Of a stretch of 64,000 nt of DNA, positions 1-44,900 are shown piece after piece. How positions within the stretch are numbered: the stretch's first letter is position 1; every line of letters begins with the position of its first letter. The position numbers were made by a program, and so were the translations under genes. Under the pieces are notes generated by a model. It ran no database searches, was not told where the DNA came from, and worked only from the letters and a program-made list of their open reading frames with translations. The stretch is from the NCBI RefSeq assembly GCF_013170825.1, contig NZ_CP033365.1, forward strand, positions 3,670,001-3,734,000, written 5' to 3'. The DNA comes from Mesorhizobium sp. NZP2298. GTDB lineage: Bacteria; Pseudomonadota; Alphaproteobacteria; Rhizobiales; Rhizobiaceae.

Positions 1-936
1 CTCTACCACATCCAGTGGAAGTTCCGTGACGAGGTGCGGCCGCGCTTCGGCGTCATGCGCTCACGCGAATTCCTGATGAAGGACGCCTATTCCTTCGACC
101 TTAACTTCGAAGGCGCGAGGGCCGCCTACAACAGGATGTTCGTGTCCTATCTCAGGACCTTCACGCGCATGGGCCTGCAGGCGATCCCGATGCGCGCCGA
201 CACCGGGCCGATCGGCGGCGATCTCAGCCACGAATTCATCATCCTGGCGGACACCGGCGAGAGCCAGGTCTATTGCGATCGCGATTATCTGTCGCTCCAG
301 GTGCCTGACGAAAACACCGACTTCGCCAATGACGCCGAGATATCGGACATCGTCAAAACCTGGACGACGCCTTACGCCGCTACCGACGAGATGCATGATG
401 AGGCGGCGTGGGACAAGCTCGGCGAAGCGGACCGGGTCTCGGCGCGGGGCATCGAGGTCGGCCACATCTTCCATTTCGGTGACAAATATTCCAAGCCCAT
501 GGGCGCCAAGGTGACCGGGCCCGACGGCAAGGACCATTTCGTCTCCGGCGGTTCCTACGGCATTGGCCCGTCACGGCTGGTCGCGGCGATCATCGAGGCC
601 AGCCATGACGAGAACGGCATCATCTGGCCCGACGCCGTGGCGCCGTTCGACATCGGCCTGATCAACATGAAGGTGGGCGACGCCGAGTGCGACCGCGTCT
701 GCGAGGAGCTCAATGCCGCCTTCACCGCCGCCGGCAAGGACGTGCTCTATGACGACACCGACCAGCGGCCGGGCGGCAAGTTCGCCACCGCCGACCTGAT
801 CGGCCTGCCCTGGCAAGTGATCGTCGGGCCGCGCGGCGTGGCCGCCGGCGAGGTCGAGATCAAGAATCGCAAGACCGGCGAGCGCGAAACGCTGCCGCTG
901 GCCGACGCGAAAAAACGCTTCGGTGCGGCCGCATGA
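1..936 (+). CDS. proS: Prolyl-tRNA synthetase, C-terminal part (cut by left window edge)
   Basis: Class II aminoacyl-tRNA synthetase that charges tRNA-Pro in the cytoplasm. The frame is open from base 1, leaving 311 residues; the short alphaproteobacterial enzyme has about 440, so roughly 130 N-terminal residues lie outside. Motif 2 is visible at the start ([17 protein letters not shown]), motif 3 is GIGPSRL, and the anticodon-binding domain follows ([20 protein letters not shown]). The length fits the type without the editing insertion. The stop overlaps the ATG of the next gene (ATGA), which fits the usual rhizobial proS-lolC-lolD order. Confidence 0.95.
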
Positions 937-2219
937 GCGAGGCGGCTGCGGCAAGATCGGCGGGCGCCGGGCCGTTCTCCATCTTCGAACGCATGGTGGC
1001 ATGGCGCTATTTGCGCTCGCGGCGCAAGGAGACGGTGATATCGGTGATCGCCTCGATCTCCTTCCTCGGCATCATGCTGGGGGTGGCGACGCTGATCGTC
1101 GTCATGGCCGTGATGAACGGATTCCGGGCCGAGCTTCTGACGCGCATCCTCGGCGTCAACGGGCATCTGATCGTGCAGCCGCTCGATTCGCCGCTTGAGG
1201 ACTACGCCCAGGTCGCCGGCCGCATCAATGGCGTGCCCGGCGTAAAATACGCCATCCCGCTGATCGACGGCCAGGTGCTGGCGCAAGGCAATGTCGGCGG
1301 CGGCACCGGCGCGCTGGTGCGCGGCATACGCGGAGAGGATCTCGGCAAGATCGCCATCGTCGCCAGCAACGTCAAACAAGGCACGCTCGCCGATTTCGAC
1401 TCGGGCGAAGGCGTGGCCATCGGCAAGCGCATGGCCGAGAATCTCGGGCTGACGCTCGGCGACACCATCACCTTGATCTCGCCCGATGGCGACGTGACGC
1501 CGCTGGGCACCACGCCGCGCATGAAGGGCTACAAGATCGCGGCGATCTTCGAAGTCGGCATGTCGGAATATGACAGCTCCATCGTCTACATGCCGTTCTC
1601 GGAAGCGCAGCTCTACTTCAACATGGATGGACGCGCGCAGACGATCGAGATCTATGTCGACAATCCCGACGATGTCGACGCGCTGAAACCGAAGGTGGAA
1701 GAGGCGGCGCAGCGGCCCATCGACATGGTCGACTGGCGCCAGCGCAACGAGACCTTCTTTTCCGCCCTGCAGGTCGAGCGCAACGTCATGTTCATGATCC
1801 TGACGCTGATCGTGCTGGTGGCGGCGCTCAACATCATTTCCGGATTGATCATGCTGGTGAAGGACAAGGGGCACGATATCGCCATCCTGCGCACCATGGG
1901 CGCGACGCGCGGTGCCATCCTGCGCATCTTCCTGATGACGGGGGCGGCGATCGGCGTCACCGGTACGCTCGCCGGCGTGCTGCTCGGCGTCGTCATCTGC
2001 ACCAACATCGAATCGATCCGCCAGTTTTTCTCCTGGATGACCGGGAAGGTGCTGTTCAACCCGGAGCTCTATTTCCTCAGCCAGTTGCCGGCAAAGATGG
2101 ATCCACGCGAAACGACCTATGTCGTCATCATGGCACTTGGACTGTCCTTCCTGGCGACGGTGTTTCCAGCATGGCGGGCGGCTCGCCTCGATCCCGTCGA
2201 AGCCTTGAGGTACGAGTAG
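933..2219 (+). CDS. lolC: Lipoprotein-releasing system permease, LolC/LolE family
   Basis: Inner-membrane subunit of the LolCDE ABC machine, which extracts outer-membrane lipoproteins and hands them to LolA. The protein has 428 residues. A membrane helix near residues 30-52 is followed by a long periplasmic MacB-like domain (about 53-280) and an FtsX-type three-helix domain at the C-terminus ([20 protein letters not shown] onward). The start overlaps the proS stop by 4 bases and the stop overlaps the GTG of lolD, so the three genes are probably translationally coupled. No second permease gene lies nearby, so it may act as a homodimer as single LolF-type permeases do. That last point is inference. 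Confidence 0.9.
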
Positions 2220-2899
2220 TGGCCGAGGTCATTATCGAACTGAAGAGCGTCGAGCGGCACTATGTGCAGGGGCCGCGCAAGCTCACCATCCTGAACGGCG
2301 CCGATTTCTCGCTGAAGCGCGGCGAGATGGTGGCGCTGGTGGCGCCGTCGGGCACCGGCAAGTCGACGCTGCTGCACACGGCCGGCCTGCTGGAGCGCCC
2401 TGACGCCGGCGACGTGATCCTGTCCGGCCGGGCCTGCGGACGACTGTCCGACGACGAACGCACGTCGATCCGCCGCAACGATGTCGGCTTCGTCTACCAG
2501 TTCCATCACCTGCTGCCGGAGTTTTCCGCATTGGAAAACATCATGATGCCGCAGCTGATCAAGGGCCTGTCGCGCAAAGAAGCGGCGGAGCGCGCCGCAC
2601 AGCTGCTCGACTATATGCAGATCGGCAAGCGCGCCTCGCACCGGCCGGCCGAATTGTCCGGCGGCGAGCAACAACGCGTCGCGATTGCGCGCGCGGTCGC
2701 CAATGCGCCGCTGGTGCTGCTGGCCGACGAGCCGACCGGCAATCTCGACCCGGTCACCGCCTCCTATGTGTTCGACGCGCTGGGCGCACTGGTCAAGCAA
2801 TCGGGCCTCGCGGCGTTGATCGCGACCCACAATCACGACCTGGCATCGCGCATGGATCGGCGCGTTACGCTCGCCGATGGCAAGGTGGTGCCGCTTTAG
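2219..2899 (+). CDS. lolD: Lipoprotein-releasing system ATP-binding protein LolD
   Basis: Cytoplasmic ATPase that powers the LolC/E permease. Walker A is APSGTGKST (about residues 42-50), the signature is LSGGEQQR, and Walker B is [13 protein letters not shown]. LolD-like features include [20 protein letters not shown] after the Q-loop. I chose the GTG at 2219, which overlaps the lolC stop TAG, giving 226 residues, the family length. An ATG at 2171 would add 16 unlike residues translated from lolC coding sequence. In many rhizobia dnaE follows; here it does not. Confidence 0.92.
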
Positions 2900-3181: not shown

Positions 3182-3458
3182 CGCTCGGTAGTCGTACAGC
3201 TTGGCCACTATTGTCTCGACTGAGATTGAGTGCAAGCAGGCGTTACCACAGCTTGCCCTAGCCGAGGAACCGCAAGCTTGAAGCGCGCCAGGAGCCGCAA
3301 AAGGCTCATCCATACGCTACGGGAAGATGGCGTCGCCCACATCCTCCTGACCTGTTGATAGGTTTCGCGCCGTCAACCTTTCCTTAACCCTGCCGATTTG
3401 ATCGCTCGAAGATTCCGGCCGCGGGCGGATTCTGTGCGTTGACTTTGAAACAAAGTTA

Positions 3459-3473
3459 GAACAAATTGAGAAC
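3459..3473 (+). promoter_or_regulatory. LexA (SOS) box, alphaproteobacterial type
   Basis: GAAC at 3459-3462 and GAAC at 3470-3473 are separated by exactly 7 bases, and each is followed by A. This is the direct-repeat GAAC-N7-GAAC (equivalently GTTC-N7-GTTC) LexA site known from alphaproteobacteria. A TTGACT hexamer at 3439-3444 is a plausible -35 element, so the box would cover the -10/start region. The micro-gene at 3496 begins 22 bases downstream. The rest of 3182-3458 shows no gene. Confidence 0.7.
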
Positions 3474-3495
3474 ATATCAACAACAGGAGAGAGTT

Positions 3496-3582
3496 ATGAC
3501 CGATCTGGTTCAGGATGTCATCTCGCTGGTTTGCATGAGTGCGTTTCTCGTTTCCATGGCGATCTGGATCGGCGCCATGTGA
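3496..3582 (+). CDS. 28-residue membrane micro-protein under an SOS box (SidA-like candidate)
   Basis: A short gene with a strong ribosome-binding site (AGGAGAGAG, about 5 bases before ATG). The product starts MTDLVQD and then forms one hydrophobic helix containing SAFLVSMAIWIGAM, ending at TGA 3580-3582. It has 28 residues. A perfect LexA box ends 22 bases upstream and a stem-loop lies 4 bases after the stop. Caulobacter SidA, a 29-residue inner-membrane SOS-induced division inhibitor, has the same size, topology and control. I see no clear sequence identity beyond this, so shared function is inference. It could also be some other small stress membrane peptide. Confidence 0.65.
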   Translation: MTDLVQDVISLVCMSAFLVSMAIWIGAM

Positions 3583-3586
3583 TTTG

Positions 3587-3603
3587 GCGGCTCTCGCCGC
3601 TTT
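3587..3603 (+). terminator. Short stem-loop after the micro-gene
   Basis: GCGGC at 3587-3591 pairs with GCCGC at 3596-3600 around a TCTC loop and is followed by TTT. This could be a weak intrinsic terminator isolating the micro-gene transcript from the downstream SRPBCC gene. Confidence 0.4.
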
Positions 3604-43458: not shown

Positions 43459-44900
43459 TATTCCGTGTTCATCTGCATGCCGTGGCCGCTGACATGGGCG
43501 CCGTCCTGTGGCGTCAGCTTGAGGTAGGCGAGCAGCGCGCAGAGCGTGATGACGCCTTCGATCGCGAACAGGATCCGGAAATCATTGGTCACGGCCGGGC
43601 CGCCGCCGGCCAGGAACGACAGCATCGCCGCCGAAAGGCCGACGCTGATGGCCACCGCCAGCTGCCAGAGGATGTAATAGAGGGCGCTGAAGCGGGCAAG
43701 CTGTTCGGGGGCGATGTCGGAATAGGCGAGGTTTCCGGTCGAGGCCCACTGGATGGAGCGGAAGACGCCGAAAACAAAGATGTAGCCAAGCACGATCCAG
43801 ACCGGCGTCGTGGCCTGCATCAAGGCGAAGCCCGCGACCATCGCTGCCACAACAGGCGTGTTGAAGACCAGTACGCGGCGAAACCCGAACCTGTTGAGAA
43901 CGCGTGGCATGAAGAAACGCATGACCACCGAGCCGAGCGCGGCAACGAAGGTCAGCGATCCCGCCTGCACCGCGCTCATGCCGAAGCCGAGCTGGAACAT
44001 CAGCGGCAGCAGGAAGGCGACGGAACTGAGCCCGATCGTGTCCAGCCCGCCGCCGGTGAGGAACGAGATGCGGAAGGTGCGGATGCGCAGCAGCTTGAGG
44101 TCGAGCAGGGGATTGGCCACGCGCAGGCAGTAGAGCGAGGCAATCGACAGGATGACGACCGCCAGCGCCAGTTCACCGGCAATCATGCCGCCGGCGGCAT
44201 CCTTGGCGGCAAGCGAGTCCATGCCGAAGACAAGCAGGATCATGCCGCTGCCGACCAGCAGGAAGCCTGGAAAATCGAAGCGCGTGCGCACCGGCTTGGT
44301 CACTGTCGGGAACAGCGAGGCGGCAAGGATTGCCGCCGCCAGCGCGAACGGCACATTGATGAAGAAGATCCAGCGCCAGGAAATGTAGGTGGTCAGCGCG
44401 CCGCCGACGAGCGGCCCGACCAGCGGACCGGTCTGGCTGGCCACGGAGATATACATGTTGATCTTCAGCGTCCGGTTGCGCGGAAAGCTCGACAGGATGA
44501 CGACCTGGCCGAGCGTGCCCATCAGCGCGCCGCCAAATCCCTGCAGCGCGCGAGCGCCGACCAGCGTCCAGATGTCGTTCGACAGGCCGCAGAGCGCCGA
44601 GGAGGTGGCGAACACCAGCAAGGCAAAGCAGTAGACATTGCGCAGGCCGAAACGGTCGGCCGCCCAGCCGCCGAGCGGCATCGAGATGATCAGGCTGGCG
44701 ACATAGACGGTGATCAAGAGGCCGAGCTGGCTGGGCGGTCGAGCCAGGCTTTCGCCGATGCCGGGCAGCGCCGTCACCACGACATTCTGGTCGAGGCTGG
44801 TCATGAACACGCCGCAGGCGACCGTCAGCGGCAGCAGAAGCAAGGCTCTGGCCGACACCTCGGCGCGATCCGTGGCGCCGGCGGATATTTCTGCGGTCAT
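43458..44900 (-). CDS. MFS drug-efflux type transporter (14-helix, EmrB/QacA-like)
   Basis: 480 residues. VACGVFMTSLDQNVVVTALPGIGESL is helix 1 with the D1 motif of 14-helix exporters, MPLGGWAADRFGLRNVY is motif A, and GFGGALMGTLGQ with ASQTGPLVGPLVGG is motif C of antiporters. Likely a proton-driven exporter in the inner membrane; substrate unknown. Between its start (44900) and the sarcosine oxidase genes lie about 210 bases with an 18-bp triple repeat and no gene. Confidence 0.87.
   Translation of the reverse strand: MTAEISAGATDRAEVSARALLLLPLTVACGVFMTSLDQNVVVTALPGIGESLARPPSQLGLLITVYVASLIISMPLGGWAADRFGLRNVYCFALLVFATSSALCGLSNDIWTLVGARALQGFGGALMGTLGQVVILSSFPRNRTLKINMYISVASQTGPLVGPLVGGALTTYISWRWIFFINVPFALAAAILAASLFPTVTKPVRTRFDFPGFLLVGSGMILLVFGMDSLAAKDAAGGMIAGELALAVVILSIASLYCLRVANPLLDLKLLRIRTFRISFLTGGGLDTIGLSSVAFLLPLMFQLGFGMSAVQAGSLTFVAALGSVVMRFFMPRVLNRFGFRRVLVFNTPVVAAMVAGFALMQATTPVWIVLGYIFVFGVFRSIQWASTGNLAYSDIAPEQLARFSALYYILWQLAVAISVGLSAAMLSFLAGGGPAVTNDFRILFAIEGVITLCALLAYLKLTPQDGAHVSGHGMQMNTE

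Follow-up and report, generated by a model that had tools for sequence, protein, structure and literature searches.

A 28-codon LexA-boxed gene of Mesorhizobium as a predicted ortholog of the Caulobacter division inhibitor SidA

Analysis of a 64,000-nucleotide stretch of Mesorhizobium sp. NZP2298 (contig NZ_CP033365.1, positions 3,670,001 to 3,734,000; hereafter the window) confirmed that a 28-codon gene preceded by a LexA box (Table 1) is real, and comparisons across related genomes make it most likely an ortholog of SidA, that is, a predicted SOS-induced inhibitor of cell division in the inner membrane. SidA, encoded in Caulobacter by CCNA_02004 (PMC10769358), is a 29-residue, SOS-induced inner-membrane protein that inhibits division through FtsW (PMC4211646). 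A preliminary description of the locus, made from its sequence alone, had proposed a SidA-like protein on the grounds of size, topology, control and isolation, and the family-wide comparisons described below support that idea.

Table 1. Coordinates, in the window, of the microprotein gene, its control elements and its upstream neighbors
Feature	Position	Strand	Basis
lolC/E-type permease gene, upstream neighbor	933..2219	+	ORF; relatives beside the peptide gene in other genera
lolD-type ABC ATPase gene, immediate upstream neighbor	2171..2899	+	Pfam ABC_tran
-35-like hexamer TTGACT, start of conserved block	3439..3444	+	TTGAC (3439-3443) invariant in 37/37
Decayed outer LexA half-site AAAC	3448..3451	+	Read from sequence and alignment
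LexA (SOS) box GAAC-N7-GAAC, GAACAAATTGAGAAC	3459..3473	+	Exact match; perfect in 37/37 genus members and 49/60 distant family loci
Ribosome-binding site AGGAGAGAG	3485..3493	+	Read from sequence; GGAG (3486-3489) invariant in 37/37
SidA-family microprotein gene (predicted), 28 codons + TGA, MTDLVQDVISLVCMSAFLVSMAIWIGAM	3496..3582	+	Purifying selection; same length in 37/37
Possible terminator hairpin	3586..3601	+	Pattern scan; weakly conserved

The block running from TTGAC at 3439 to the stop codon was found in all 36 other genomes of the genus that were searched, and in the alignment of the 37 sequences conservation climbs at TTGAC and drops directly after the stop. A scan of named genomes, in which 80 of 129 loci were kept, returned nearly exclusively Mesorhizobium (M. 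loti, M. ciceri, M. huakuii and M. amorphae among them). The preliminary description had looked to relatives for the box, the start and the helix, and had made its reading frame hang on a Ka/Ks ratio away from 1. Both expectations were borne out: the box is found in 37 of 37 genus members, as is an ATG followed by 28 codons and a TGA, and the dN/dS of 0.10 (mean pS 0.362, mean pN 0.048) is far from the refuting value near 1. The observed pN/pS of 0.132 compares with a mean of 0.87 and a minimum of 0.36 in 100 shuffles of the alignment columns, and variable columns fall on codon positions 1, 2 and 3 in 12, 3 and 22 of 27 cases each. The peptide sequence is under purifying selection.

The distance from the end of the perfect LexA box to the ATG is 21-23 nt in 34 of the 37 members, and the other three have the box one 11-bp step further upstream; in the window the ATG at 3496 follows the end of the box by 22 bases, as the preliminary description had it. 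Three GAAC motifs spaced at 11-bp steps are seen in 23 of the 37, the outermost of which has become AAAC in this genome. The bare GAAC-N7-GAAC motif is itself no evidence of control, with 2 occurrences in the window against 1.81 expected and, genome-wide, 90 and 89 on the two strands against 112 and 95 for a control motif; it is the conservation of the perfect box throughout the genus that places it beyond chance and rules out an accidental origin. The other occurrence in the window lies at 43887-43901 (GAACCTGTTGAGAAC), about two being expected by chance. The invariant TTGAC before the box may belong to a promoter; a sigma-70 scan of the locus gave no passing match. Given the box and its placement, induction of the gene by DNA damage is very probable.

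The encoded peptide has a single hydrophobic helix, with a Kyte-Doolittle mean of 2.25 over its best 19 residues, and this, together with the open reading frame and the invariant GGAG, upholds the earlier account of a 28-codon gene with a strong ribosome-binding site and a single hydrophobic helix. The stem-loop said to close the gene is the weakest part of the locus: the fold z-score is -0.84, and a stem of at least 6 bp occurs 3' of the stop codon in 30 of the 37 genus members against 17.1 expected from shuffles. The 28-residue peptide matched no family model in NCBIfam or Pfam, a Pfam search with 53 members of the family gave two single hits at chance level, and no copy turned up on plasmids when 72,556 records were searched at E<=1.

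A peptide of this kind could also be an SOS toxin comparable to TisB (29 residues) and DinQ of E. coli, which would make the membrane leaky and slow growth, as in persistence, with the divisome not its specific target. Both E. coli peptides are of the same size class, have a single helix and are LexA-controlled, and the peptide alone cannot decide between a toxin and a division inhibitor. They differ, however, in acting on the membrane potential, in having no relation to the present locus, which by locus tags is that of sidA (see below), and probably in their control: for DinQ, a 27-residue LexA-controlled inner-membrane peptide, and for TisB, antisense RNAs and leader processing are described as keeping the peptide in check (PMC3567139), whereas here a mere 22 nt separate the box from the ATG. 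No Rfam family matched between 2900 and 3800, a search that a novel antisense RNA would escape. On balance we regard such a toxin as unlikely and retain the division inhibitor as the preferred reading.

Beyond the genus, a profile built from 17 sequences matched in 229 of 297 genomes of the family at E<=1, a threshold that admits chance matches, and 60 distant loci in other genera were chosen among the places listed by it. From the start of the profile match, 53 of these 60 encode 28 residues, and 49 have a perfect box within 110 nt upstream, the figure for control windows taken from those loci being 2 of 1594; a perfect box is absent in 11 (L173, L182, L187, L190, L193, L199, L204, L205, L211, L213 and L215). 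Across 53 members of the family M1 and F17 are invariant and D7, V8, S10 and A22 nearly so, residues that could serve as constraints for mapping the predicted contact with the divisome. The profile A2 was made from 49 of the 60 loci, leaving out the boxless L173, L182, L199, L204, L205, L211, L213 and L215, the duplicate L195, and also L158 and L214; the later combined profile A4 further omits the order-level loci L240, L248, L254, L257 and L258. Membership in the profiles is thus partly box-guided. Divergent relatives of 29-33 residues occur at other places in some genomes (L199, 1738-1833, in G076; L205 in G247; L211 in G119; L213 in G110); they have no box within 110 nt, while the main copies of the same genomes do, and are possibly paralogs.

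The preliminary description had also taken the gene to be isolated, and this part does not stand: it belongs to a recurring neighborhood of the form lolC/E-lolD-[peptide]-dnaE in relatives. Upstream in the window lie a permease gene, which we take to be of the lolC/E type from its position and family, and an ABC ATPase gene, which is the best match in the genome to the LolD model, yet falls under the cut-off of that model, and whose true start is probably inside the tabulated ORF. Among the 60 distant loci, 37 have lolD upstream in the same orientation, and no lolD was found in the fetched flank of 22; downstream, part of the lolD-positive loci whose following ORF was read have dnaE (recognized by its PHP motif), and in others lipB adjoins the peptide gene instead. 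In this genome lolD has been kept beside the peptide gene and dnaE has been lost from the locus, with dnaE1 at G000:C1:4033251, about 360 kb away.

This linkage raises the idea that the peptide is made on DNA damage to regulate the LolCDE lipoprotein exporter as one of its subunits, as lolD is the frequent codirectional neighbor and stays where dnaE is gone, the window being a case in point. The distant loci with no lolD in the fetched flank argue against it, as do distances of 0.9 and 2.5 kb between lolD and the peptide gene in two Caulobacteraceae-like genomes and the reported action of Caulobacter SidA on the divisome (PMC4211646); we consider it very improbable. The least credible reading is a leader ORF regulating dnaE, a role proposed for sORF25 of S. 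meliloti, which is situated within the 5'-UTR of dnaE1 and named among possible uORFs (PMC10117765): dnaE is indeed the next gene in many relatives, but some adjoin lipB instead, and for this genome the reading is excluded by the remote dnaE1 and a peptide that is nevertheless under selection at the amino-acid level.

Returning to the predicted SidA family, a profile of 53 members gave weak matches in other families of Hyphomicrobiales, and the 20 order-level loci inspected have a perfect box in 16 cases (12 of 15 for those outside the family) and a recognizable lolD in 13. A class-level hit outside the order (L264) is a 44-codon ORF directly preceded by a box and followed by dnaE. Of 40 genomes of its family, f61, which belongs to another order, 36 carry the peptide, with 4 of 40 giving no match in one search and 3 of 40 in another; inspection of 30 f61 loci showed a perfect box in 29 and a recognizable dnaE downstream in 21, and the rhizobial and f61 profiles align with an hhalign probability of 95.6%.

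A class-wide search of 387 genomes used A4, which was built without Caulobacteraceae, and 24 loci were inspected, the known top six being set aside. Nine of the 24 have a perfect box and all nine adjoin dnaE (for L341 and L344 the dnaE evidence comes from separate analyses), whereas none of the 15 loci lacking the box does so. One hit, L340 in G1097 (E 4.9e-6; NFVQDVASFCSIAAFLIAF...), has neither a start codon in its frame nor a box or dnaE beside it, and is perhaps a decayed copy.

Approached from the opposite side, dnaE was found in 225 of 232 class genomes, and the regions upstream of it were examined for the best-scoring 110 of the 225, of which 107 were readable; L374, L375 and L377 were dropped for a missing PHP motif, and the region of L401 is clipped by its contig. 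A codirectional box lies within 700 nt upstream of dnaE in 22 of the 107, compared with a box on the opposite strand in 9 and the control motif, on either strand, in 1. All 22 have a hydrophobic ORF of 26-56 codons starting within 70 nt of the box, and such an ORF follows 49 of 840 positions drawn at random from loci without the box; three of the 22 (G672, G805 and G903) are from f61, the source of some profile members. The peptides of two box-plus-dnaE loci are not separable from shuffles by profile (in G753, 361 of 2000 shuffles reach the score, and in G788, 43 of 2000). No codirectional box was seen in the other 85 of the 107 regions, and in many lineages the gene must therefore be absent, lie elsewhere or be under different control.

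The place of sidA itself can be reconstructed from locus tags. In Caulobacter dnaE is CC1926 and lexA is CC1902 (PMC1839093), the latter also being CCNA_01979 (PMC11535069), and recN is CC1983 by the literature and CCNA_02062 according to PMC12700426. The offset between the two numbering schemes thus goes from 77 at lexA to 79 at recN, and, CCNA_02005 being a nucleoside hydrolase (PMC3667746), CCNA_02003 is left for dnaE; by this locus-tag arithmetic sidA would lie beside dnaE.

For comparison at the sequence level, peptides at the corresponding locus of Caulobacteraceae-like genomes stood in for CCNA_02004. The holdfast protein HfaD, which among 14 named control genomes matched in Caulobacter vibrioides only, scored over the cut-off in 2 of 232 class genomes, both of family f115, with six others matching below it; on this basis, the HfaD test having covered two of the three f115 genomes examined, f115 is taken as Caulobacteraceae. 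All three f115 genomes examined have lolD upstream (0.9 and 2.5 kb from the peptide gene in two of them), a peptide of 29-31 residues with a LexA box, and dnaE downstream. Scored with A4, the three f115 peptides exceed all 2000 shuffles of each (hhalign 94.8%), whereas a rhizobial-only profile sets them apart less clearly, its scores for the three being equalled or exceeded by 0, 1 and 14 of 2000 shuffles, with a weak hhalign probability of 73.1%. Against the orthology weigh this weak relation, the peptides of G753 and G788, the 85 dnaE regions and 11 distant loci in which the box is not seen, the hit L340, and the 0.9 and 2.5 kb between lolD and the peptide gene. The preliminary description had seen no clear sequence identity to SidA: the A4 scores qualify this, those with the rhizobial-only profile to a lesser degree. 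Its statements on size, topology and the LexA box all hold, with 28 residues against 29 and one helix. The Mesorhizobium protein resembles SidA in its predicted LexA control, length, single helix and, for the family and by locus tags, a place beside dnaE, and peptides at the corresponding locus of Caulobacteraceae-like genomes share a weak core with the rhizobial family; it differs in that its locus has lost dnaE, the sequence similarity is low, and its function is a predicted one.

By analogy with SidA, we propose that LexA bound to the direct-repeat box, which would overlie the promoter, keeps the gene off, and that DNA damage would free the promoter, giving a transcript with a short leader of perhaps about 20 nt that could be translated at once. 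The 28-residue peptide would then insert into the inner membrane as one helix and hold the late divisome (FtsW/FtsI/FtsN) inactive, as reported for Caulobacter SidA, so that division would be delayed until LexA is restored. Both the division block and binding to FtsW are here inferred from the Caulobacter protein. Caulobacter cells deleted for lexA are reported to filament owing to sidA (PMC12700426), and filamentation on lexA deletion is the phenotype to expect for the rhizobial gene too. By their descriptions, DidA, YneA and SosA are likewise small damage-induced membrane inhibitors of division, though DidA is SOS-independent and binds FtsN (PMC4211646).

The S. meliloti sORF25, reported as a novel small ORF in a study combining ribosome profiling and proteogenomics (PMC10117765), lies at the place of the family before dnaE1, and by position is probably an ortholog of the Mesorhizobium gene. 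A function would thereby be offered for it, where so far it has been mentioned as a possible upstream ORF. Taken more widely, we consider it likely that SidA is an ancestral alphaproteobacterial checkpoint microprotein, vertically inherited with its LexA boxes at lolD-[sidA]-dnaE and overlooked as too short, that in rhizobia, as in many other Hyphomicrobiales, it is the likely SOS division inhibitor, and that sORF25 is a member. If the orthology holds, the SidA brake would be older and more widespread than a Caulobacter speciality, and rhizobia have in this gene a concrete candidate for their SOS division brake. No rhizobial SidA was found in the titles, abstract openings and selected passages of the literature searched; the original SidA paper may discuss homologs.

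With respect to the SOS network of this genome, an AT-rich form of the box, GAACRWAWNNNGAAC, is enriched, with 20 matches as against 2 for a control. Nine of the 20 sites were taken, chosen because their ORFs resembled repair genes; beside them, matches over the NCBIfam cut-off identify DNA polymerase IV (twice), ssb, a repair radical-SAM protein and a dGTPase, and those under the cut-off are imuA-like (twice), parE-like (an ORF clipped by the end of the locus) and RecD2-like. Given the enrichment and the adjacent repair genes, the AT-rich motif very likely functions as the SOS box in this genome. The imuA-like and the DNA polymerase IV genes near such boxes, two of each (L216, L232, L223 and L227), amount to a doubled translesion outfit, and further AT-rich SOS boxes are present at L220, L222, L230 and L231.
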